Source of the DNA: Siphonodentalium dalli
Taxonomy: Eukaryota; Mollusca; Scaphopoda; Gadilida; Siphonodentaliidae
Length of the DNA stretch: 64,000 nt
Assembly (NCBI GenBank): GCA_032622095.1
Contig: CP136064.1
Location: 170,510,310-170,574,309 of the forward strand
Direction: 5' to 3'
Part shown: piece after piece, positions 27,701 to 49,610 of the stretch
How positions within the stretch are numbered: position 1 is the first letter of the stretch
Layout: each line of letters starts with the position of its first letter
Translations under genes and position numbers: made by a program
Notes under the pieces: model-generated
Seen by the model: the letters and a program-made list of their open reading frames with translations, nothing else
The model's database searches: none
Told to the model about the DNA's origin: nothing

Positions 27701-30700
27701 GTGTGCCAATGGATTCAAATTTGAAATTCAAGATGGCTGCTGGTGGCCATGTTTTTAATAAATTTGAAATTCAAGATGGCTGCTGGCGGCCATGTTTTTT
27801 AACAAATTTCGGGAAAAATTGATGACTCCCATCTGGAGGTCACCCCGAAGATCCATATGAAGTTCAGTGATGATCAGATGAGAGATATGACATGTAGGGT
27901 GTAGAAATTGTTGACTGACGCACGCACAGATGAGTGCCCAGACAGATGGACAGATGCCAACCCATGACAATAGCTCTTGAAAACTTGACAATAGTGCTAG
28001 ACAAGTGTTACAGGATACCTGAGTGATAGTTTTACTCAATTTTAGACTTAGGCCAAATAAATACAAATACTCCCTCATCAATGAAAAGAATATAATATAT
28101 GCAGTATTCTCCACACTTTTCTAAAGATTTCGAAACTCATTCTCCAATTTATCTACAATTAGAAATTTAGATACAGTAATGCTCTAAGTAATCGACTTCT
28201 TAACCACAGCAGAATTATGGGTAACTTTTCAGGATTTAGTCGGAAATATGGCTTGTTGCCGATGAATGGCAACAAGCCGTATTTCCGACTAATTCCTGAA
28301 AAGTTACCCATAATTCTGCTGTGGTTAAGAGGTCGATTACTTAGAGCATTACTGTAGGTCAGTTTTCCCATAATGTAATCACCAGTCTCTTTGAAAAGCC
28401 AATGAATATCCTAACGGACGTATGTCTCTAGAAGTGTCCATTATAAATATTTCATTTCTACAAAGACGCGGCATTCCAAACATGACGTAATAAACCATTT
28501 TCAAATATGGAGTGCATTCCCAGAGTAGTAAATGTTTGTGAGAATCGTAATAATTAAAAATAGTTATAAATATAACAAGATGCGAAAGAATAATCAGTCA
28601 TGAATATCGTTGACTGATAAAAACTCGAAGATGATGTCTCCTATATCAGGGTTTCCGCCAAGGGGAAATTAAGGAGTCCGTATTGGGGGAAAAACATAAC
28701 GCGACGGGATGACCATGGTTCGTCCCGTCTGGCGAAAAAATAAATTATTTGACACTGAAAAGTAGCCATTTCCTTGCACCTGAGTGTCCCACAAAGCAAT
28801 CCAAAGCTACGTATATTACGCAAGTCGATCATTTTCCGTGGGTGCATTAATTCTGTTGATGGTATTCAGATAATTAATCATGTAATTACGCACGTAAGAC
28901 TGCCGTCTGATTGAAGACTATATCAAGCTACAAGTTACAGTGTTTAAAAATTTATAACTTACAATAAGATTCCGACAGGTATAATGAAACTAAACACTAA
29001 AAAGCATTTATGCATTGTCCAATAATACCTAGCTGGGAGAATTGAATTAAGTATTTCCTAGAATTTCAAGTAGCTTCCGTGAAAATGAAACTGATATATT
29101 CCATGTATTCTGTCAATCGTAAAACTATTTGTGCGCTGTGACGTCATATATACTGCAGGGTTTGTCTGCAGGAGATATTTATAGCGGCGAAATACGAATG
29201 GTAGCGAAATCTTTCAAACTCGAAACGCGTAGCTTGTCAATAGTCTGTATTAGTCCAACAACTGACGACCGCTGCTATAGAGTTTTAGCCAACGTGTTAT
29301 AAAATATAATTGAGTTTTGGCGGGAAATGGGAACATGTGCGCTGTTGTTTGTGTTTGGGGACCCAGGCGGGCAACGAAACTATTATTGACCGTACTTTGA
29401 CTTTATCTCCATATTGGGGGGGGGGATGTTTTTTGTGCATATCCTCCATGCATGTAATATGGGTCAAATGAATGGTGTTGTCACTATGAATTCCCGCTAT
29501 AAAGACTGATTTGGGACACGTTCCGTATTATAATAGTACGGGATCTCGGAGGTAGATACCTCCTTTGGTAGGAGAACCGCCTGTTGGCGAATGTTGATCC
29601 CTACTCTGCCTAACTCAGCAATTCGGCATTCTTTGATCAAATTATGTAATCGTACGATAGCACGGGATCTCCGAGCGTGAGTAGTTTCAACCACAGAAAT
29701 TCCGTGCAAAATAATATCCGTACTCAGCAGTTCGACATTCTTTGATGTTACCACGACATTTATTATGCTGTATATAACGTCGCTATTTCAATGCACACCA
29801 AATATTACGTTGTAGTTTTGGCGCTTTGATTTCAAAGGGTTACGCTGTACCAGTAACACACTGATCAATTGACCCGCTTTTTCACCAGTATTCTGTTTAA
29901 CCTCCCGAACTCCCGTTGCAGCCGGATTTTTTATGACATATTGCTACTGACTTTTGGTACATGTATGAATCAAACAGATCATCTGCGAGGGGAATGGGTC
30001 CGTGGGACGGACCCGCAGCCGGCCTGGCGGCAACCCTGCCTATATTGCAATGAGTAAAATGAATCATGGATATATCGCCTGTATTCAGCTTTCCAACAAT
30101 AGTTTGGTTTGACAAAGCGTGTGAAAATTGTCAATGCGTCATTGACCTCAGATCTGTAAAGTGATCTGTTATGCCATAAACCAATGAAATCGCTCATAGT
30201 CTGCACCACTCTCCAATGAAATGGAGGGAATCCCTTCAATACAGAACCTAATTTTAATAGAGAGCTCTAGAGATTTACATCCGATATAGGATTTTCTTTT
30301 GCTTTTCAAAGAGATGTGTAATTACCTGAGAACACAGGTATTTATATTTAACTTGACATTAACTATTTGGATACTAACTGTGGAGTTGAGGATGTTGAGA
30401 TTGGAGGCTCTGATTGGTCAGCAGAAAAAGGATGCTCATTGCTCTTCTCTTCATTAGACTCTTCTGGACTCTGTTCCTCAGGGCTCACATCAGCCATATT
30501 CTTCGGAGAAATTTCATCATCCAATGAGATATCGTCATTATCTTCTTCAATATCAGCACCCTTATCGTCATCAGCAATGCTCTCCTCATGTGGTTTTGGA
30601 GATTCTGCATCATTAGGATCACTCCATTCGAGATCCCTATCACTAAATGTACCTTGCTTTAAGAAATATCGAATTTTTTTCGAAGGATCGTCATTGTCGT

Positions 30701-33700
30701 CATAAGGCTCATTAGGCTCTGGTTTCTCATCATTTTCTGGCTCCAATGCATTCATTTCAACCATTCTTCCATGAATGGGCAGATGTGGTGTGTGCCATTC
30801 ACCACTGTGTTTGGTATTCATTCCTGAATCATTTATGGTATTGCTGTTTGAATTTTTTATTGACTGCAAAGGAATAAGTCGACGTTGCGAAGAATTATCA
30901 CTTCGATCAACAGGGGAAGACAACTCCTCGTTCATCATAACTGGAGACGTCGAAAAATCTGTCTCCTTCAAATTCTGCTGCTTCAGTTTTTGCGGTAGTA
31001 TTTCATCAATGTCATATCGTTGGAAGCGACTTGGTTTGGCATTTGTATTGAACTGAGTATTTCGAATATGAGAGCATTCATCAACTATTCCCAAATCTTC
31101 AGACTCGTCCTGGATTTTCACACCATACGTCCTCCAGAAATCTTTACAACATTTCTGCAGAGAACGGATTTTGAGGAATTTTGCTATCCGCATCATGTCC
31201 TCGACGAGTGTGTCCAAAAGCACGAGGAAACCTTCATAGATATACTGAAGGAAGGCCTGGACAGCTGTGCTGCTGATTCCAGGTGGAAGACTAACATTGA
31301 GAATTGCACCTTGTGATTCATTTCTGGTGTCCGACTTCAGCTTAGGACTGACAGCAAACAACACCAATTTGTGAGCCTGTAATAGGAAACATGGAACCTT
31401 TATCGGTTTAATCAATGAATTTTAATTTGCAATTTTTGGGACTCACTGGTTAAAGATAGCGAATCTCTTCTGGGCCACAATTTTTATTTTTACAAATAGG
31501 TTTTTTGTGAATAAAATACAGAAAAAACTATGATTGGGTATATTTTCCGTCTATAAAAGGAATAATGAAGTGGTCTATTTCTGATGCAGCCGGGTGTAAT
31601 TTGGAGTTAAATCTTAGTTGAAATGACATCTGCCTTGATTGAGGGTGTTAATAAGATATATTCTTCTACTTTGTTTACTCGGAACATTTCCATAAGATTT
31701 TTGTTCTAATGATTTCATACAGTAGGATCTAGATTAAATTTGAAAGGGTGAGATATACTATCTTTAACAATCACAATCACAATCAGAAATGACCTCCATC
31801 CGTCCATTCGTGTGTCACATATTACAGATACCTTTATTGTGTAATCAACTCATCCCAGTTTCTAATGTAGAGAATTGACACTTTAGGATATTGATAGAAA
31901 TATATTGCTGATGTGTAAAGTTTATATGGAAGTCGGAAATGATTGCTAAAAATTCACTGAGCTATTCACCTTTCATACTTAGAAGACCGTGACCAAATTC
32001 GTACTTAACCAGCGAATTCTCAAATATCAACTACATACCAAATCCCATGGAATTCTGATTAATATTCTCAAGTTATGATCCAGATGGACACATAGAAACA
32101 TGGCAATACCAATGATAGGGTGTTTAGTGGCTTTATGGTTTGCATGTTTATTAATGTCCAAATTAATGAGGCATCAAAAGTGCACCAATGAAACAGGTTT
32201 AAAGGCTAGTTTGAATATGTATTAGCATTCCACATATACCGGTACTAGGCTTGCCACGATTATTCGATTAATCGACTAACCTTCGGCAGGTGCGGTAGTC
32301 GACGGTTATTTACTTTCGTCGACTAATCGCCCGAGCGGGGGGTGGGTATGATTGTGTAACTTGTGTTTGTAAGCAGTACTTTTCATCGATGTCATGCCTG
32401 GAAGTAACTGATAACTGCGTATGCAGCACAATTCCGTTGCGGCGTCCTCTGCCTTTGATGTTGCTGCCGACATTTGGCGCTCATCTTCAAAGAATTATGT
32501 GTGCGACATCGAAAAGTTAATTATGTTTATTGTTTAACTGTGAATATTAATTTACTATTAGTGCTACTGTCTACCTATGTCCTCGTTAACTTCATTGTAA
32601 GTGCATGCCTTTCGCCACAATTTTACCGATTACATGTAATGTGATGCACGTGACCTGCCAAAATACGTAGTGGCGGCTTGGGAGTCGCGATCGAGATTAG
32701 CTTTACTTCGTGCAAATTTGCATAGTTACTGTCACGTCGTGTATGCAGTTTGCTCTAACTTTGCCAGAAACATCGGCAAAATGGGCACTTGGCAGTACTT
32801 AATAGTAAGGGCCTGTTAAAAACTACATCGGGACGAATGAGACTATGAGGGCATGAGTATTCCTTGTTGTATACGAAATAAAACAGTGTAAAACACGGAG
32901 CATCGACAGTTTATAACTGTCTTCAAAATGGATGTAAAGAAGTCATCGTAATTTCGCATTTATCAATTGTTTACCCGAATGTAATACAGGGCGCATATAT
33001 TACCGATTAATCGACTAACCGTCGATTATAGCTGCCGATTAGTCGATTATGAAAACTCATAGTCGTGGTAACCCTAACCGGTACAACATATATTATCTAT
33101 GTAAACTCTATTTATTAGTAATTTAATGTGTATATAGCAATGTGTTATGTAACTCTTCATTATTGGAGGAAAAAAAGATTACTGGTATATGTATATGTAT
33201 GATTAGGAATGTATAGGGTTAATGAGTTTAAGCCCCAATCAGGTTTTTGTCCAGTATGCAAGGACAAGTATGGATATAATCTTTCTCCAGCTTTTCGTGG
33301 TTTTTACAAAGTTGTGTTTGGATGCTTTAAATACCCCAAACAACAGTTAATATGGAATTGGGCAAAAATGCTTAACCTTAAGCTCATAAACGCAAAGAGC
33401 CTCAAAACCTTATACATATCAACATGCAAAGCCCATAAACTCCTTTTGTTGGTCGGTCAGACATACTGATTGTAACAGTCGCTGGAGAAAAAAATTTGGG
33501 GCGACAATTAAATAAATCTTCATTCACATATCTCGAAGGCTAGTTGAAAATATTTTGATATTAATATTTATGAGGAAAGCCATGAGATAATATAGAAATA
33601 ATAAAATGGTTTCAACATCATGGATATAAATTATGAAAGTTCTGTATATAAAACAAGAGCATCACTAGGGCATGCCAAATACATATAAACCAAGAGCATC

Positions 33701-39711: not shown

Positions 39712-41739
39712 TAGGCCAAGTAAATGTAACTGTAATGATTATAACACACAGTAAGTATTATCAGAATCCAAATAAGCATAGGCCTATAACAATATCTACA
39801 CTGTACAAAGTCAGCTGTGTATGTTGTCTCTTGGCTTCATTCTTGGCAAGTTCATGCTATTTATTAAATGAAAGTGTCAATGACACTGAAGCTCATTGGC
39901 TCAACTTGGAGAGGTAGTCTGGTCGATAAAAGGTTTGAGCATTTTTTGTAATACAAGATGGCAGTTGGTATAGAAAACTTCTGAATTTCTTTGGTAGTTG
40001 CAACAACTAATACCAAATTAGTAATAAAATGAAAAACACACAAACAATGCTTTGTCGCAAACCATATCGGTAGAATGTCTGTCCCAAAATGGCCACCAAA
40101 ATGGACAAAATCGAATGAAATTTACAATTTGTGGAAAATTGAATAGTTAGTCCTATAAGAATGAAAAGCTCTCAAATTATGGGATGAGGAATGATTTCAG
40201 AGTATAAGCAAAACTTTTGATAAGATATGTATGAATTCTCTCTAATGTATCTCGCACGAGAGCAAGCGAAATCAGGGTCTCATACAACAGTTAAATCTTA
40301 ACTTTTGGGTGCCCAGAAACAGAAAAATACCGCAGTTTTATCTGTACTGTTTATCCTTAATTGTGTGATATACGGTATGTGTAATTAAACAGTTAAATGG
40401 GATTTATTAGGAATGTAGTGATTCTGTGGCCTTTTCTAGACGCAGAAATATGTATACTCTATAGCAGTCTCTTGAATATGACTGATCATCATTTATTTTT
40501 ATATCTACAACATCCAATCTGTCAAAACTTACTATTATAGAACAGTGTGAGTGCTATTCACTGAGTACTGGGTAAAATGTGTAGATCCTATTGTCTGTGT
40601 CTTATAATAGTAGTCGCAGTTGCCTCCGATCAAGTGACGAAACAAGAATATTTCGCTTTCGTCACAAAAATGCATGTTGGTATACTATGAACACAATTTA
40701 TCAAAATACAATGGAGTACCAAAGACTATCTTCAATAAATTGTCAACTTAACCAAAATTGCCTACATACTCTGTGACAGAGACTCTATTTATACCTGGAA
40801 ATTATATTTGCTTATAATTTACTAAGGCCAATTATACGCGAAACATACAACGTTTTTTGCAACCGCATGTCACCGCTTTTACCCCTTTTCACTAATGTTA
40901 CACATACATGTATCTGTGGCACATGAAACCATAAATAGCAACATTGAGTGAATGGTCAATGCAGAAATAATAGCTTTAAACGCTGATAACCTGATCTTTA
41001 GCCCAAGTACACGGGTGGCAATGGTAAAAAAAATTTCAAACAACAATAAACTGAAAACTAATATTGTGCATTGCATAGTAGCATATTCTCGTTGTAAAGT
41101 GGCGACTGAAGTAATTTGAACAACATTGTATCAAAGAAACGGTTTTGGGAGCAGCATGAAAATTAGTCTTAAATAAAATGTACGATGTACCGTCTCTTCT
41201 TTACAGTATAATCAGCATTACGACTACAAGTACGTGTATGGTTTATTACCAAGGAGAGTGTTGGAAATTCCAGAAATGTAAATAGTATTTACACTGCAAG
41301 GGTGTGCACTTCAGTTTCTGTGTTACATTAAATAGTTAATCATCATTGCAGATGAAACTACATATGTACCATGCACTGTGTGGCGAAACATTACATTGTG
41401 GGTTGCATGCCCGATTATTTATTTTTTTTTGGCCCGATTGTTGCATGCATTCTAAGCAGAAAACCTGAACATTAAACATGTATATCATTGGGTTTAACTT
41501 GCATTGCAGTGGCCAATAAATGCTTCATGTATGCATCTGTTTTAATGAATTCCACAACGGAGAATGAAATTTGTGAAAAAAATTAATCTCTCAAATTGAC
41601 TAAACAGTTTGACAATCTGATAGTTTAATATGGTATTCAGGTTATTGAAAACAGTTTTTTTCTCTCTCGTATTCATCGTTTTAGTGATGAAAGCTTATGT
41701 CATTGTTAACCCACTTGCGCTACTAAAATATCGACCATA
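39712..41739. other. Non-coding stretch, no gene seen
   Basis: No supported exon, hairpin or repeat recognised on either strand. The short open frames at 39735, 40591 and 40879 have no domain or splice context. Confidence 0.3.
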
Positions 41740-41878
41740 TAGGCGAGGTGTCAGATGAGGTGAGGTGTCACCCGAGCCGGGAATTGATGGCACTATTATT
41801 TTCGTATAGGTAAACTATTGTAGTTGTGTGATCCGGATGTTGCACGGACCTAATAGGATGCTTTTTAGTTTTATGGTC
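41740..41878 (+). repeat. Left 139-bp terminal inverted repeat
   Basis: Contains GTGTCACCCGAGCCGGGAAT, GATCCGGATGTTGCA and GGACCTAATAGGA, all found in inverse at the right end in the same order and spacing. Confidence 0.85.
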
Positions 41879-42461
41879 GATATCCCGATGCTACCCTGCT
41901 GTAAATTAGGCATATATTTAGGATACCCCTATTTTATAAAACACACCTATACCCCTCATTCAAATGAGAAATTGTGCAATATTCATCAGTTTTCGCGATG
42001 GTGGGATGACAAGTAACCAAACATATGATGAAATTAGCAGAAGCCTGCCAATCGAGTGACGTTGTCATGTCGTTCTAAATGTCACTTGCCGTAAATGCTC
42101 CTCGATTCAATCAAAGTGCTCCGATTCAATTCTTCTGAAAAAAATCTAGCAAAGATACCTATATGATGTTTATATCATTGCAAACTACTGCCAATATACT
42201 ACAAGCTGACGCTTCATATTGGTCCATGGGACCTATTGGGGTGGAATAATGAGGAAAATGCTACCCCTCCCCCAAAAACGAAAAATCAGACTTATGCCAC
42301 AGAGATCCATAATGCGACTTTATTTTCATGCAAATGAAGTCCAGGATGTCTTGTGAGATTATGGTCAATGACAAAACGATGCCTCATTGTTGAAAGTAGC
42401 AGAATAACCCATACGGCCTCAAGTTAAATTTGACCCTCCTCGTCCAAACACCCCAATTCAG

Positions 42462-42685
42462 ATGATATGTACAAAAGGTGGTGAGAAATCCAGACATACC
42501 TGCATCGTAATATTCAACTCAGAGGACTGTGAAGATTTTGTCAATTCCATGTTATTACGGGCTGCCATGGAACTGAAGAGTGACGTGATCAAATTCCCAG
42601 ACGTGATAAAATTTCCAGGATTGTCATCGGTAATTTTTGTTTCAACAAAACAACGTGATTGTGGTAGTCTTCAACATTTAGCAAG
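42462..42685 (+). CDS. Possible 5' exon of the nuclease-like gene
   Basis: Open frame of about 75 codons (MICTKGGEKSRHTC ...) ending at AG followed by GTGAGT, a consensus donor. The CxxGGEKxxxxC start could be a zinc-binding pair. No acceptor that keeps frame with the next block is visible, because the obvious one (ATATTAAAG, 42974) gives the wrong phase. Either the exon is unrelated or the junction has decayed. Confidence 0.35.
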
Positions 42686-42965
42686 GTGAGTACATCTATA
42701 TTCAAATTACAAGAGCATGTAATACCACAACTCCCCCATCATTTTTCTACAAAACTACGGAAAGCCAGAATAACAATAAAATATCTTCAGTCAATCCCGG
42801 TCTAAGTCACGTTTCTTTGGACAATGGACATGTTTTGTTAAACCCCACCTGGCCACCCCAAATGGGTTCGAATGGGAAATACAGTGGACTCCATGTGTAT
42901 CCATGATGTACGTCCATACACGCATCTGTCCGGAGCTTAATTCAATAAACCTTTACTGAAATATT

Positions 42966-45900
42966 AAAGACATTTTGAAGAAGGCTTCCGCGGTGCTGCG
43001 ACGCAATGCGCTGGACTTTGTCGACAAATGCCCCGACCTACCCTGGCCACCCACAGAAAAATCTCTCACTGATGCAGACAGGGAGCCCCCCGCCGAACTT
43101 GTGTCATTCTTCTGTCGTATATTCAAGCTACCTGGACATCCTGTCCGTGACCGAATGGCTCTGGTCGCGAAGTCCATGGCACAAGACATACTTCATGGTG
43201 TATCTCGTGGAAGCTATCTCACCTGGAAGCACGTGCTACTCGGTGTGGTAGTACACAATATGACTGGTCAGAAACATCCAATCCATATACTCTCATCACT
43301 GGGACATTGTGCGAGTTATGATACGGTCTATGAGATTGAAAGTGCTTTGGCCGAACAGTCAATCATGCTTCTGAACAATCTGACTTTTCTGCCTCTCCGA
43401 CCAAAGGCCGCGCTGTCGACTGTCAAAACATTCTTTTTGGTCGATAATTTCGACATGAACATTGAGACACCCACAGGCCATAACACCATTCACAACACAC
43501 ATTGCGTTGCTTACCAAGAAAAGTCTCCTTCGTGTGTATACAAAGACACCTCTGTTGTAGTACCGAAATCAAAGCGGAGGTCGATACAATCCACCTCTCA
43601 AGTTCTAGAACACCGGGGCGTTAATGCGAAGCGAGAACCGCCCCAAATGTCTGAGAGCTTCGAGATACCGAGTGCATCAATAACTGCCGCAAGATCGAAG
43701 TTGATGGTATGAAAAATGAGCCGAAGTCACAACACGGTTGACCAGTGCATTCCAATATATGGAGGGTGGTTATCTCTCGTTTCCAACAAGACTAAATGTG
43801 AAGAAAAAACCATCATAACATACTTACCTCCAATCCACCATCCGATCACAGAGTACAGCACCATTCTCGAGTTTTTACATCAGATCCAATCATACGCTAA
43901 ACAGGTTAATATGGCGAATGTTCATGTCACATTGGATGTTGGTGCCGCGTCTAAAGTTTATCAGACTGTTTGGAACTACCCGGAGGAGTTCAAAAATGTT
44001 ATCGTTCATTTAGGTGACTTTCATTTAATGCAAGAAAACTTTGGTGTTCTCGGCAAACTAATCGAGGACAGTGGGTTTGAAGATGTAATATTCCAGTCTG
44101 GTTCATTAGCGATGGGCAGTCTCAATGGAGTATTGAAAGGTAAACATTACAACCAAGCATGGCTGGTCCATGAACACTTCGCGGATGCTTTGGAGAGACT
44201 TCTGTTCGAAAGATTCACCCAATACTCCCCAGACGTCCATATTCCTAATGCAATGTTCACTATAATGGCATCAACCCCATCACAAATAGATGAAACTAAA
44301 CTGATGAATGATCCAGATGTCAAGCAATTTACTGTGGTATATGATAAATTTCGGGAATGTATCAGGACTGGAGGTTTGGGTCTTACGGCAAAGTTCTGGA
44401 TGTTGTATTTGGATGTGGTTGATATACAGCACATACTACATGCAGCCATCAAGGAACGCGATTTCAATGCACGCATGTACGCATGGAAGCTTTCATTACC
44501 ATTGTTCTTTGCACTTATTAAGGTGAACTACGCGCGGTATGGGACATTCTATGTTCGGCAATTAGAGAAGCTAGCTACCAGCGCTGCCGAGAGCTCACGG
44601 ATGTCTGTGTGTCAGTCTGTTGTAGTACTCATAACGGGGGTCGCGTTCCTACTGACCAGACAGGAGAGCAGACCTTCAACAGGAGTGCCAATGTACCGGG
44701 GGATATCAAGCAGTTCGCCTGGAACCATGGATCTTATGAAAAATGGGTACTCAACAGACCACAAATGGCCAGATTGAAGGATATGTTATATGATGTAGTT
44801 GGTTTGCAGAGTTCCATTGATAATACTGCAGAATAAGTCGTATCAGCCTTTCAGAGAGAAGAGTCCAGGATGTCTTACGCGTAATACGCGAGGAATTCGT
44901 TAACCCTTTCAGTAGTGACTTGGATGAATGTAAACTAAACAATTTGTCCTCAGGGGCGCCAGTATCCATCGATATAGCAGACTCTGTGACCAAGTGTGCG
45001 GTTTCCGGGAAACAGAGGGCAGACAACTTTTTGAACACCCTGTGCTCATCGAATTGATGCCTTCTTCAGTCAAATCAAACGTGTCAAATTTCTCACTTCC
45101 AAGGATGCTAGCAGTAAAGTGAAGGTTATCTCTAACGATAAGTTGAAAGTCCGAGAAGTTGCGATGGAGAGGGATGTTCTTGTCAAGCTTCTTGCATACT
45201 CTTGACACTGCGAAACGTCCCGTAGATATAGACAATGCGTTGTGCTATTGTTTAGGTGCTCTTCCTACATGCTTGGCGCATCCAGATGGAACACGACGGA
45301 TGACGACCAAAAGTAAACTTATCGATTGTATCGCACACACCTTTGAAAATGTCGAAACTCAGAAACTTCCTTGTGCGACCAGTGTCTCAGCTTATATACT
45401 TGACTTGATGGCTGTAATCCGTATTATTTCGCCTCTCCCGAGACCTTCGAAGACCTTGCCATGAGTATAATATCAACCATACCAACCGCATATAAACGTG
45501 TTGATATCGTAGTTGACACATATAGGAATAGCTCGATCAAGGGTGCCGAGAGAAGCGACCGAGGGTCAAGTGAACAGTATATGTTGAAAGGACCAAAATG
45601 CAAGATTCCGCGAAATTTTATTGGCTTCCTGGCGAATGGTTCTAATAAAGAGAGGCTTGCTGATTTGCTCTTGGAAGTATGGCAAGATCGCCGTAATGAG
45701 TATGTGACTGGGCGTATATTTTTCATCTCCATAAGAAACTCATGTCATAAGATAACACAAGAGGCAGTCCAACTGGTGCCGGAATTGGCTTCTGATCAAG
45801 AAGAAGCTGACACTAAGGTAGCTCTGCACGCAAAAGATGCAATGCATACAAACCTGGGTCCTGTTGTAGTGCGGTCTCCATCTGGAGATACTGACATCAT

Positions 45901-46625
45901 AATAATACTCTTGTCTTCATTTGCCGACAACGATAACGATTTGTTCATTGACAACGGTCATGGGAACTCACGCAAAGTTTTCAAATTGAACAGTTGCTCC
46001 ATGTCCGGTGCAACTAAATTGTCACTCATCGGGCTACATGCATTTACAGGCAATGATTATGTGTCATCTTTCTTCAGAAAGGGGAAAAAGGCCTGCTTCA
46101 CCCTCATGGAGAGAGATGAGAGATACATGTATGTCGAGGCTTTCAACACTTTAGGTTCTTCCTGGTCTGTGCCGTTGGACACCACGCACGTCCTCGAAGA
46201 GTATGTATGTAAACTGTATGGCAAACATCGCATGTCAAGTTGCAACGAAACACGGAAGGTGTTATTCTGGGAAAAATACAATAAGAATAAACAAATGATG
46301 GACCTCTCCCTCATGCCTCCATGTCGAGACACTTTGATGCTCCATATCAAGCGGGCCAATTATGTCAGTCGAGTTTGGCGCCTGTCTATAATCGCCAAGA
46401 TTGATCCACCAGACCCCCAGTTCCACGGTTGGAATCCTGATTTTCAGATTAATTGGACCGCAGAACCATTTCCGATGTGAGATTTCATCCATTATGTGTG
46501 ATATCACCGATAGCGGATTGAGTGAAGCAGTTGATGAGGATGAGGCAGATGATTGTGTAGAAAGCGATGACGAGGTTGACGGAATTGACGAGCGTAATTT
46601 AAGCGACAGCGCAGAATTCGATTGA
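42966..46625 (+). pseudogene. Large uncharacterised invertebrate family protein, XPG/FEN-like C-terminus, frameshifted
   Basis: Coding similarity runs without a gap through changing frames: one block to the TGA at 43710-43712, on in the same frame to about 44585, then five frame changes (near 44585, 44840, 45050, 45200, 45440) to 46480, with an acidic tail in yet another frame to 46625. Order of features: HGVSRG and GLGLHSITGQKKPI-like text (GVVVHNMTGQKHPI), SYDTVYEIESALAE, VDNFDMNIET, LGDFHLMQENFG, GKHYNQAWLVHEHF, GEQTFNRSA, then a nuclease region. Nuclease hallmarks are DTYRNSSIKGAER (XPG N-like), EEADTKVALHAK (XPG I-like), SGDTDIIII and LHAFTGNDYVSSF, ending in HIKRANYVSRVW. I recognise the family from invertebrate predicted proteins (memory). 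The acidic residues expected for two-metal catalysis are present, although the copy as a whole cannot make protein. Confidence 0.75.
45440..46480 (+). CDS. Open nuclease block of the same gene (remnant)
   Basis: The longest intact block, about 340 codons. Residues expected at XPG/FEN active sites are seen in order: D of VVDTYR, E and D of QEEADTK, both D of SGDTDI, D of TGNDY. The ending LMPPCRDTLMLHIKRANY... DPQFHGW is a family hallmark. It has no separate promoter or credible own start, and the ATG at 45461 is internal to the ancestral frame. Confidence 0.6.
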   Translation, partial: ETFEDLAMSIISTIPTAYKRVDIVVDTYRNSSIKGAERSDRGSSEQYMLKGPKCKIPRNFIGFLANGSNKERLADLLLEVWQDRRNEYVTGRIFFISIRNSCHKITQEAVQLVPELASDQEEADTKVALHAKDAMHTNLGPVVVRSPSGDTDIIIILLSSFADNDNDLFIDNGHGNSRKVFKLNSCSMSGATKLSLIGLHAFTGNDYVSSFFRKGKKACFTLMERDERYMYVEAFNTLGSSWSVPLDTTHVLEEYVCKLYGKHRMSSCNETRKVLFWEKYNKNKQMMDLSLMPPCRDTLMLHIKRANYVSRVWRLSIIAKIDPPDPQFHGWNPDFQINWTAEPFPM

Positions 46626-47215
46626 TGTGGTATAGTGTTTGTTGAACTTTGTTCTTTCACGTAAATGCATCTATGAAAGCATGTATCGGTCACTTCGATA
46701 TAACTGTGCAATGTCAGACTCTACGTTATTCCTATTTCCAATCGTAGTAATACACAAAAGACCCTTCTGATATCAATATTGCCAGGAATATTCGTCAACA
46801 TTTTGGGGTGGTGGGGTTGTAACTAAGGGGCGTGGCATATTGCGCAATATATAACACATGTCTAAGGTAAGTCTTTCCAATTATTTATGGAGACCCAATA
46901 TCAACCAATCACATTAATTAACTTTGTCTATACTTAAAGCTGTCCAAATTTCCGACATCCAGTTAACATGATACCCGTTTTAAGAAATTTTACGATTTTT
47001 TTGCAATGGGGGAGGGTTAAGTTTTTTCCGTCAAACTCGGACATTACTGAAGAAATTATAAAACTGTGTTATCTGACGTATGTGTATATCATCAGCCTTC
47101 ATTTTGGTATATTACTTTGATATATATGTTGATCATTCTTAGTTGTAGAGTGAATGAATCAAGAGCATTTTTCTGAATCGTCATGAAAATATAAGATGTG
47201 ACGTCATCCCCAGCG

Positions 47216-48148
47216 TAGTCCAAGTCTTCTCGTACCCGGTACTAAAACTAGCTAAGATTTTGGGATGGAGATGCTAGTGTTTAGTCCGAGTTCCAGGCCC
47301 ATGCATTTCTATGACACGAGTTACGCCCAGGATCTGTGGCGGGAATCTGTGGTGTATTTTACTCGATTTACCCAACAAAGCAATACATGATGCTATATAC
47401 ATCGGAAAGAGTGACATCTTAGGGTCATAATGGTGTATAATAATCTAACTTTAATGTTAAATTACACATAGAATATTCCGGTTGATTGCCACAAACATCG
47501 TTGTTTTTTCTGTTTGTTTACTTAACTGAAAGCCGAACTCAGGTTCCGAAGAACTTCGGCATTGTCCGGTGTTTGGTTTGGCCGAAACGAATTTCGATAC
47601 AAACAAAATGGCGGCCCCCATGATATTCTAATGGTCATTGTGTTTACACTGTTTTAAACTGTGAGATGGTTATAATTCCCGTAATTTATTTAATGTATTA
47701 CATTTATATCTTCAATATGTATTTAATCTATGTATTTATTTATTGTCACGTATAATTACGATTACAATGGAGAATTCATCGTGCGTGGTTGATTGAAAAT
47801 CTACGGAATATTTTCACCGGAAAATGCCGAACACAGTTCGCAAGGTCAACTGAGTTCGCATACTTTAAAAAATATGTAAACACTGCGGCAAAAGTTTCTT
47901 TTCACATTAATTACCGCTTTCAATTCACAACCGATGTGGGTTTCAGATCAAATAGCATGTCTTCTGCGGAAACTATCCGTTTATTGTAGCAATTGTGATA
48001 TTTTATTTCATATAATTGTGGTTTTATTTGAGCGGGTCACTAACGCTTAAGTCGTGTCATAGAAATGCATGGGCCTGGAACTCGGACTAAACACTAGCAT
48101 CTCCATCCCAAAATATTAGCTAGTTTTAGTACGAGAAGACTTGGACTA
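47216..48148. mobile_element. hAT-like element inserted in the 6.7-kb unit, perfect 8-bp TSD
   Basis: Ends TAGTCCAAGTCTTCTCGTAC and inverse, arms about 110 bases. CCCCAGCG occurs at 47208-47215 and 48149-48156. Interior 0.7 kb is non-coding. The perfect duplication shows this insertion is younger than the host unit. Confidence 0.85.
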
Positions 48149-48337
48149 CCCCAGCGTCACTCAAATATCACATACATGGGATGTTAAACCTTATTATATT
48201 TGAGGGACTATAGCTGAAGAGAAATGAACTCAAATTGAGAGGAATAAGCTGCACAAGTGTGAAATGGATAGTAATTTTCAGAATCCACCACATATGTTAA
48301 ATAACCACAATTTGGTGTCGGGTACCCCCATACAAGT

Positions 48338-48476
48338 GACTATAAAATTAAAAAGCGTCCTATTAGGTCCATGCAACATCCGGATCCCGGAACTACAATA
48401 GTTCACCTATAGGAAAATGATAGTGCCATAAATTCCCGGCTCGGGTGACACCCCGCCTCATCTGACGCCTAGCCTA
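48338..48476 (-). repeat. Right 139-bp terminal inverted repeat
   Basis: Inverse of 41740-41878, same length, with roughly a dozen or more differences, so the two ends have been diverging for some time. Confidence 0.85.
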
Positions 48477-48599
48477 ATATTGGTTTGTAAATAAATGATC
48501 AAATAATAACAATCACAAAATATTGGCCTATACTATTTAAGTATTTTAATAGGTAGATTCATGCTATAACACATTTTAGGTTGATATTCCTGTCCCTGA

Positions 48600-49610
48600 T
48601 GACCATTTGAGAAAAAGTTTGGTAATGACAGGATAAGGGATGTAGCCTGAAGGGTGTGGCGAAGGATTTAATCAGCAAAGTAGGGCTGCCACGATTTATC
48701 GCAATTCTGATGCATCGCTTTTTTAAATTCACAATGCAATGCATCGTATTGGGAGTGTGCGATGCGATGCAAAAAAATTCATATATGCAGAGTTACATGT
48801 ATCAATAGTTAGAAATTCAAACTCAAAACTTCCCATCTGGGCAGATCTGGGGACTGTATTAGCTACGGTATTATAGTCTACATCTAATACCTGGTCATGC
48901 ATTTTGGTCATTTTAGTTAGGTCTTGTAATTTACTTCAATGGATATGCTGAGGTGAAAACTGGTGAGAATATACATACTAAACATTCTTAAGTGGTTGAT
49001 CTAGTTTTCACAACAGTCAGTTGCCAAAAATTTGCATTGCATCGCATCATGATAGTAAAATACCGTTAAGGTCTGAATCGTTGCAACCCTAATGCAAAGG
49101 CCATGTTTTTTTTTACCACATTCGGACAAATTTGATGGCTCCCATCTAGTGGTCACCCAAAAGTTCCATATAAAGTTTGGTGACAATCGGACAAGAGATG
49201 TGGTCTGTAATGTGCAGCTATCGAAATTAAGAAACGGCAACTTTAATGCTTTGGCATGCTAGATTCAACATGTTGCTGTGTATGTTTCCCAATGACATTG
49301 CTCATTGTCATGGCCAATTTCAAGGACTTAGGGTGTGCCAAAGGATTTAGTCATGCAAAGAAAAAAATATCAAGATGGCCTGTTTTTCACTGAAAATCTT
49401 TCAAATTCGGTAGCTTCCATCTGGAGGTGATGCTAAACATAAGATGCCATATAGGGTGTACTGATCGTTTCAAATTAACGAATTACAAAAAAATAAGACG
49501 CTCTCATTTAGATGTCACCCCATAGATCCATATGAAGTTTGGTGATGATCTGATAAGATGTGATCTGTAGGGTGTGCTAAAGGAAATTCAACGGACGACA
49601 GTCGACTCAT
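48600..49610. repeat. CAAGATGGCTGC family repeats, interrupted
   Basis: Units with GGTGTGGCGAAGGATTTA, GCAAAGGCCATGTTTTT, CTCCCATCTAGTGGTCACCC and ATGAAGTTTGGTGATGATC. The first unit is split by the hAT-like insertion at 48681-49091. Confidence 0.65.
48681..49091. mobile_element. hAT-like MITE nested in a dispersed repeat
   Basis: Ends TAGGGCTGCCACGATTTATC and inverse of TAGGGTTGCAACGATTCAGA. Subterminal GATGCATCG/GCATTGCATCGCATC words. Flanks CAGCAAAG and ATGCAAAG, an 8-bp duplication with two changes. The host repeat reads TCATGCAAAG elsewhere, confirming the insertion site. Confidence 0.8.

Follow-up and report, generated by a model that had tools for sequence, protein, structure and literature searches.

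A decayed DNA transposon of probable AcademX type with remains of a transposase–nuclease gene in the scaphopod Siphonodentalium dalli

Academ is counted among the superfamilies with a DDD/E transposase (extract of PMC9587614). Its AcademX lineage, which is credited to Kojima 2020, combines such a transposase with a nuclease and makes duplications of 3 or 4 bp, while AcademH carries a helicase and makes duplications of 9–10 bp (extract of PMC10045372); the AcademH helicases are treated in an extract of PMC10799480. The curated Academ elements average 5,565 bp and, among the sampled molluscs, are nearly confined to bivalves; a few annelid Academ open reading frames (ORFs) are also known (extract of PMC10294476). 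Here, we describe a unit of ~6.7 kb (41740–48476) bounded by terminal inverted repeats (TIRs) in Siphonodentalium dalli. It lies in a stretch of 64,000 nucleotides (the window, within which the coordinates are counted) corresponding to positions 170,510,310–170,574,309 of the forward strand of contig CP136064.1 in the assembly GCA_032622095.1, which comprises 2.23 Gb in 9 contigs. Our results support a mobile DNA element whose mobility gene is the family gene inside it. In all likelihood, the unit is an ordinary member, now dead, of a transposon lineage that is already known: with a probability of roughly 0.87, we assign it, by published description, to the decayed cut-and-paste DNA transposons of the AcademX type (Academ superfamily).

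The ends of the unit were determined using an inverted-repeat scan and a TIR search of the genome, as follows:

41740..41878, forward strand: left TIR, 139 bp, starting with 5'-TAGGC (inverted-repeat scan and genome TIR search)
48338..48476, reverse strand: right TIR, 139 bp (inverted-repeat scan and genome TIR search)
41737..41739, no strand: left copy of the 3-bp target-site duplication ATA (the 3-bp length is the same in 8/8 complete copies)
48477..48479, no strand: right copy of the 3-bp target-site duplication ATA, directly outside the right TIR

The two arms are identical at 124 of 139 positions (89% complementary, blastn E 4.7e-49), and the remaining blastn matches to them in the window do not exceed 25 bp. 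This confirmed the original prediction of two 139-bp inverted repeats in the right orientation; the flanking ATA duplication had not been part of that prediction. One long decayed gene (~42960–46477) and a later insertion (~47216–48148) were found between the arms, as had also been proposed.

A search of the genome with the left TIR was used for the examination of other copies. All 31 of the 31 candidates were scored, which gave 31 places, and 26 of these matches span 128–139 of the 139 query bases. The 26 matches and one partial match were fetched, giving 18 loci (20 stretches), while four partial matches were left out. Both complete ends were present at eight of the 18 loci, with a spacing of 4.8–20 kb. 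A perfect 3-bp duplication was seen in all eight complete pairs (ATA, CAT, CAA, TTG, TTT, CAC, TTG, and CAT) and a 4-bp duplication in none of them. The flanks of the eight pairs do not match each other, indicating unrelated insertion sites. It should be noted that a pair on C4 at 42.2 Mb was excluded from the duplication count, as its left-type end is truncated. The search for a second end within the fetched stretch of ~10 kb was negative at nine of the 18 loci, and no empty site was found when the joined flanks of the eight pairs were compared with the fetched loci. The complete pairs contain two TIR subtypes, left and right, with one of each in every pair; their ends are 96–99% identical to the window end of the same kind and 88–91% identical to the other kind. 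All 16 ends start with TAGG, and 15 of them with TAGGC.

Family coding sequence was present at 17 of the 18 end loci, and none was found in the fetched stretch of the remaining one (L021). The same-genome TIR search with its 31 places, the ORF remains at these 17 loci, and the constant duplication length of 3 bp in all eight complete pairs bear out the earlier proposal that the family is the mobility gene of a DNA transposon of its own; the concern that the TIRs might never flank the ORF elsewhere proved unfounded. The window by itself would leave room for a host or captured gene lying by chance inside the TIRs of an unrelated element, and the related proteins bear mostly uninformative annotations. 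However, these ends accompany the gene at 17 of the 18 loci, two more families described below carry it between TIRs of other kinds, and there are at least 126 genome matches to its DDE region, so such an accident is scarcely credible. Blocks shared by the window element and the other copies are mostly 91–98% identical (range 85–100%). One copy, L017, keeps residues 4–1466 of the relative P0121 coding in pieces; this copy, too, is broken, and no right end was found for it.

The full-length relatives of ~1,500 amino acids carry both a DDE domain and a C-terminal nuclease. The order in these proteins is an N-terminal Cys/His-bearing region, the DDE transposase domain, and an XPG/FEN/EXO1-like nuclease. 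The model of the middle (DDE) region has an RNase-H fold, and its best fold matches are the P element, RAG1, and Hermes transposases. The C-terminal region has a predicted fold like that of EXO1/FEN1/XPG with seven conserved acidic positions, the identity to these nucleases being 8–15% among the matches listed. The XPG/FEN-type nuclease that had been proposed for this gene is thus supported by the predicted fold of its relatives.

To describe conservation, we used an alignment (A3) of 32 full-length proteins out of 72 relatives and a wider set of 188 proteins, 106 of which have at least 1300 amino acids. In the numbering of P0121, the DDE positions D467, D634, and E880 are invariant in all 32 proteins of A3, as are the nuclease acids D1127, D1165, E1261, D1263, D1289, D1291, and D1345. 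We take these seven acids to be equivalent to D34, D86, E158, E160, D179, D181, and D233 of FEN1. Among the 106 long relatives, D-D-E is kept in 105, and D or E is found at all ten positions in 99.

The Pfam domain DUF6589 was found on the DDE half of six of the 32 A3 members at E ≤0.01, two of them above the curated cut-off; this overlap includes the relatives P0185 and P0186. Apart from DUF6589, the Pfam scans gave no named domain in the family and none naming a transposase. No useful match was found in the PDB by sequence, and the best results of PDB profile searches were EXO1 at E 0.58 for A2 and, for A1, a single short chain (E 0.42) that is unrelated. In viral contigs, no relatives were present among 22 pattern matches for A2 or among 46 for A1. 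In the literature search, no paper contained 'Academ' together with 'XPG' (whole-word search), and nothing related was returned for DUF6589/PF20231. The family is large, and most of its members carry the annotation hypothetical or uncharacterised, in agreement with the earlier description of a mostly unnamed invertebrate protein family. Two of the proteins, P0258 and P0289, are filed under a Sedimenticola bacterial metagenome-assembled genome and are probably contamination with animal DNA.

The original prediction placed the XPG/FEN-type nuclease in the position of a DDE transposase. It is true that the nuclease half is real with a conserved active site, that the protein has no Pfam domain with a transposase name, and that Foldseek alone gave no significant match for the DDE half. 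Nevertheless, an RNase-H-fold DDE domain precedes the nuclease in the same protein and keeps its D-D-E in all but one of the long relatives. A nuclease that is itself the transposase, with no DDE domain, is therefore very improbable, and this part of the prediction had to be given up.

The remains of the gene in the window copy are as follows:

42960..46477, forward strand: transposase–nuclease gene remains, with 1 in-frame stop and 5 frame changes
43440..44674, forward strand: DDE transposase domain remains (motif positions; fold and conservation of relatives)
45399..46060, forward strand: XPG/FEN-like nuclease core remains (motif positions; fold and conservation of relatives)

The gene is open in pieces only, in seven segments across 42960–46477. 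Its N-terminal coding is gone, with ~1.2 kb missing in comparison with L017 and the junction near 42968. The codons of the DDE acids, placed by hand from the motif positions, are D at 43443–43445, D at 43935–43937, and E at 44666–44668; the codons of the nuclease acidic positions, placed in the same way, begin at 45402, 45515, 45803, 45809, 45887, 45893, and 46055. The Pfam scan of six pieces of the window gene gave nothing above the cut-off. The window copy is dead: it has one stop and five frame changes, has lost 1.2 kb of 5' sequence, and carries a nested insertion. An upstream exon at 42408–42686, which was suspected at first, was rejected because the N-terminal coding of L017 falls in the stretch lost from the window copy. 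A conserved intron at relative-residue 891 was rejected as well: no insert is present in 12 other aligned rows (11 loci), and the rows differ at this point only by small length changes in a G run.

The X in AcademX refers to an XPG nuclease. All the published features of AcademX that were compared, by description only, were found here, namely a DDD/E transposase, a nuclease and not a helicase, and 3-bp duplications. The combination of DDE transposase, nuclease, and duplication length therefore matches AcademX. AcademH belongs to the same superfamily by the published account, but its helicase and 9–10 bp duplications differ from our unit with its 3 bp; neither the Pfam scans nor the precomputed Pfam annotation of the listed relatives contained a helicase. 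The P element, hAT (Hermes), and Transib/RAG1 share the RNase H fold with a helical insertion. However, the duplications are 8 bp for the P element and hAT, in contrast to 3 bp in the unit, and 5 bp for Transib; to our knowledge, the transposases of these three groups are without an XPG nuclease. PIF/Harbinger elements make a 3-bp TWA duplication, which is not the pattern of the eight duplications given above. CACTA / CMC (EnSpm) elements make 2–3 bp duplications, so the length fits, but their CACTR termini differ from the TAGG found at all 16 ends. The EXO1/FEN1/XPG and XRN nucleases have the same fold and seven-acid active-site layout as the C-terminal domain of the family, but they are cellular repair or decay enzymes without a transposase domain. 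In KolobokP, a DDD/E transposase is accompanied by an accessory nuclease of the His-Me finger type, which is a protein of its own, and the elements have long terminal direct repeats (extract of PMC9587614). The coupling of a DDD/E transposase and an accessory nuclease is alike, but neither the separate His-Me finger protein nor the long terminal direct repeats were seen in our unit.

Two points weigh against the assignment to AcademX: the DDE half is not significantly recognised by Foldseek alone, and the match rests on published descriptions and not on reference sequences. The latter point, together with the lack of any named domain other than DUF6589 in the family, would fit an undescribed sister lineage with the AcademX architecture that forms a separate superfamily by transposase phylogeny. 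Meanwhile, both the architecture and the duplication length are as published for AcademX, and Academ elements are known from the bivalves and annelid ORFs mentioned above (extract of PMC10294476), so we consider such a sister lineage unlikely. The earlier claim of an undescribed lineage was likewise not upheld, as the architecture and 3-bp duplications fit AcademX as published (extract of PMC10045372).

For an AcademX-type element, we infer the following biochemistry and assignment of tasks to the domains. The DDE domain would act at the 5'-TAG ends of the TIRs, exposing 3'-OH ends, and would join these ends to the target with a 3-bp stagger, which would result in the 3-bp duplications. The structure-specific nuclease would process the opposite (5') strand: it would either cleave this non-transferred strand or remove 5' flaps in excision or gap repair. 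At the level of sequence, the conservation of the two active sites side by side is an argument that neither is dispensable. In Tn7, there is a division of labour between TnsB and TnsA. We tentatively suggest that the family protein may be a convergent eukaryotic counterpart of TnsB/TnsA, that is, a two-nuclease transposase in one polypeptide, with the DDE domain responsible for 3'-end cleavage and joining and the FEN/EXO1-like domain for the 5' non-transferred strand; in this case, DUF6589 would correspond to a part of the DDE domain. Such an arrangement would account for the retention of both active sites in 99 of the 106 long relatives.

The search of the same genome with the DDE region (at least 126 matches; 115 of 1511 candidates scored) was followed by the fetching of six further loci, L029–L034. 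Family two (L029–L031) has a protein ~32% identical to P0121 and copies that are 98–99% identical. Its TIRs of ~43–56 bp start with TAGAC, and both ends were found in two of three copies, with the duplications TCT and TAT (ends set by eye). Family three (L032–L034) is ~27–30% identical to P0121 and has TIRs of 736 bp, 97.7% identical, in one of three copies; for a duplication GAT to be read there, a change of one terminal base has to be assumed. On this reading of the ends, all three families start with 5'-TAG. The copy L032 (G000:C4:65654400-65663600) has an open frame of 1415 amino acids with all ten catalytic acids, and in view of this open frame, recent activity of the lineage is possible.

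Two deletion junctions, at element positions ~1480/2201 and ~3671/4690, co-occur in eight of the 18 loci. Five of these eight are complete pairs, each with different duplications, and the second junction is also present in a further pair (C7, 158.8 Mb). Between them, the two deletions take out the first two DDE Asp codons along with all but one of the seven nuclease acids. At the junction, the sequence shows directly that the second Asp codon is missing in L009, L012, L013, L014, and L026, and also in L011, whose upstream sequence differs; L022 and L025 gave no exact match to the junction probe. As derivatives without active sites of their own could hardly move themselves, the deletion copies were probably mobilised in trans.

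The insertion nested in the window unit has the following features:

~47216..48148, no strand: nested non-autonomous DNA element of 0.93 kb with TIRs of ~110 bp (own inverted repeats), a later insertion and not part of the unit
47208..47215, no strand: left copy of the 8-bp duplication CCCCAGCG, if the nested ends are TAGTCC/GGACTA (by eye)
48149..48156, no strand: right copy of the 8-bp duplication CCCCAGCG (by eye)

The nested element is absent from the 13 other copies of the host unit whose two flanking sequences are directly joined. Its left flank in the window is without seven bases that the unfilled copies have, and for this reason the 8-bp duplication, which we take to be of hAT-like length, is likely but not clean.

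Elsewhere in the window, three degenerate copies of a 43–59-bp direct repeat lie at 48614–49576 with spacings of 558 and 362 bp. A 352-amino-acid open stretch at 30363–31421 (reverse strand), whose start is BTB/POZ-like by eye, is probably an exon of a host gene.

The results correct the tempting claim that a nuclease stands in for the DDE transposase in this family. They also suggest a function for DUF6589 and for a large set of animal proteins that mostly lack a described role in their annotations. Judging by the predicted fold and the ten acids, the family maintains a DDE transposase along with an XPG/FEN-type nuclease, so the role of the nuclease in transposition becomes a direct question for the bench.
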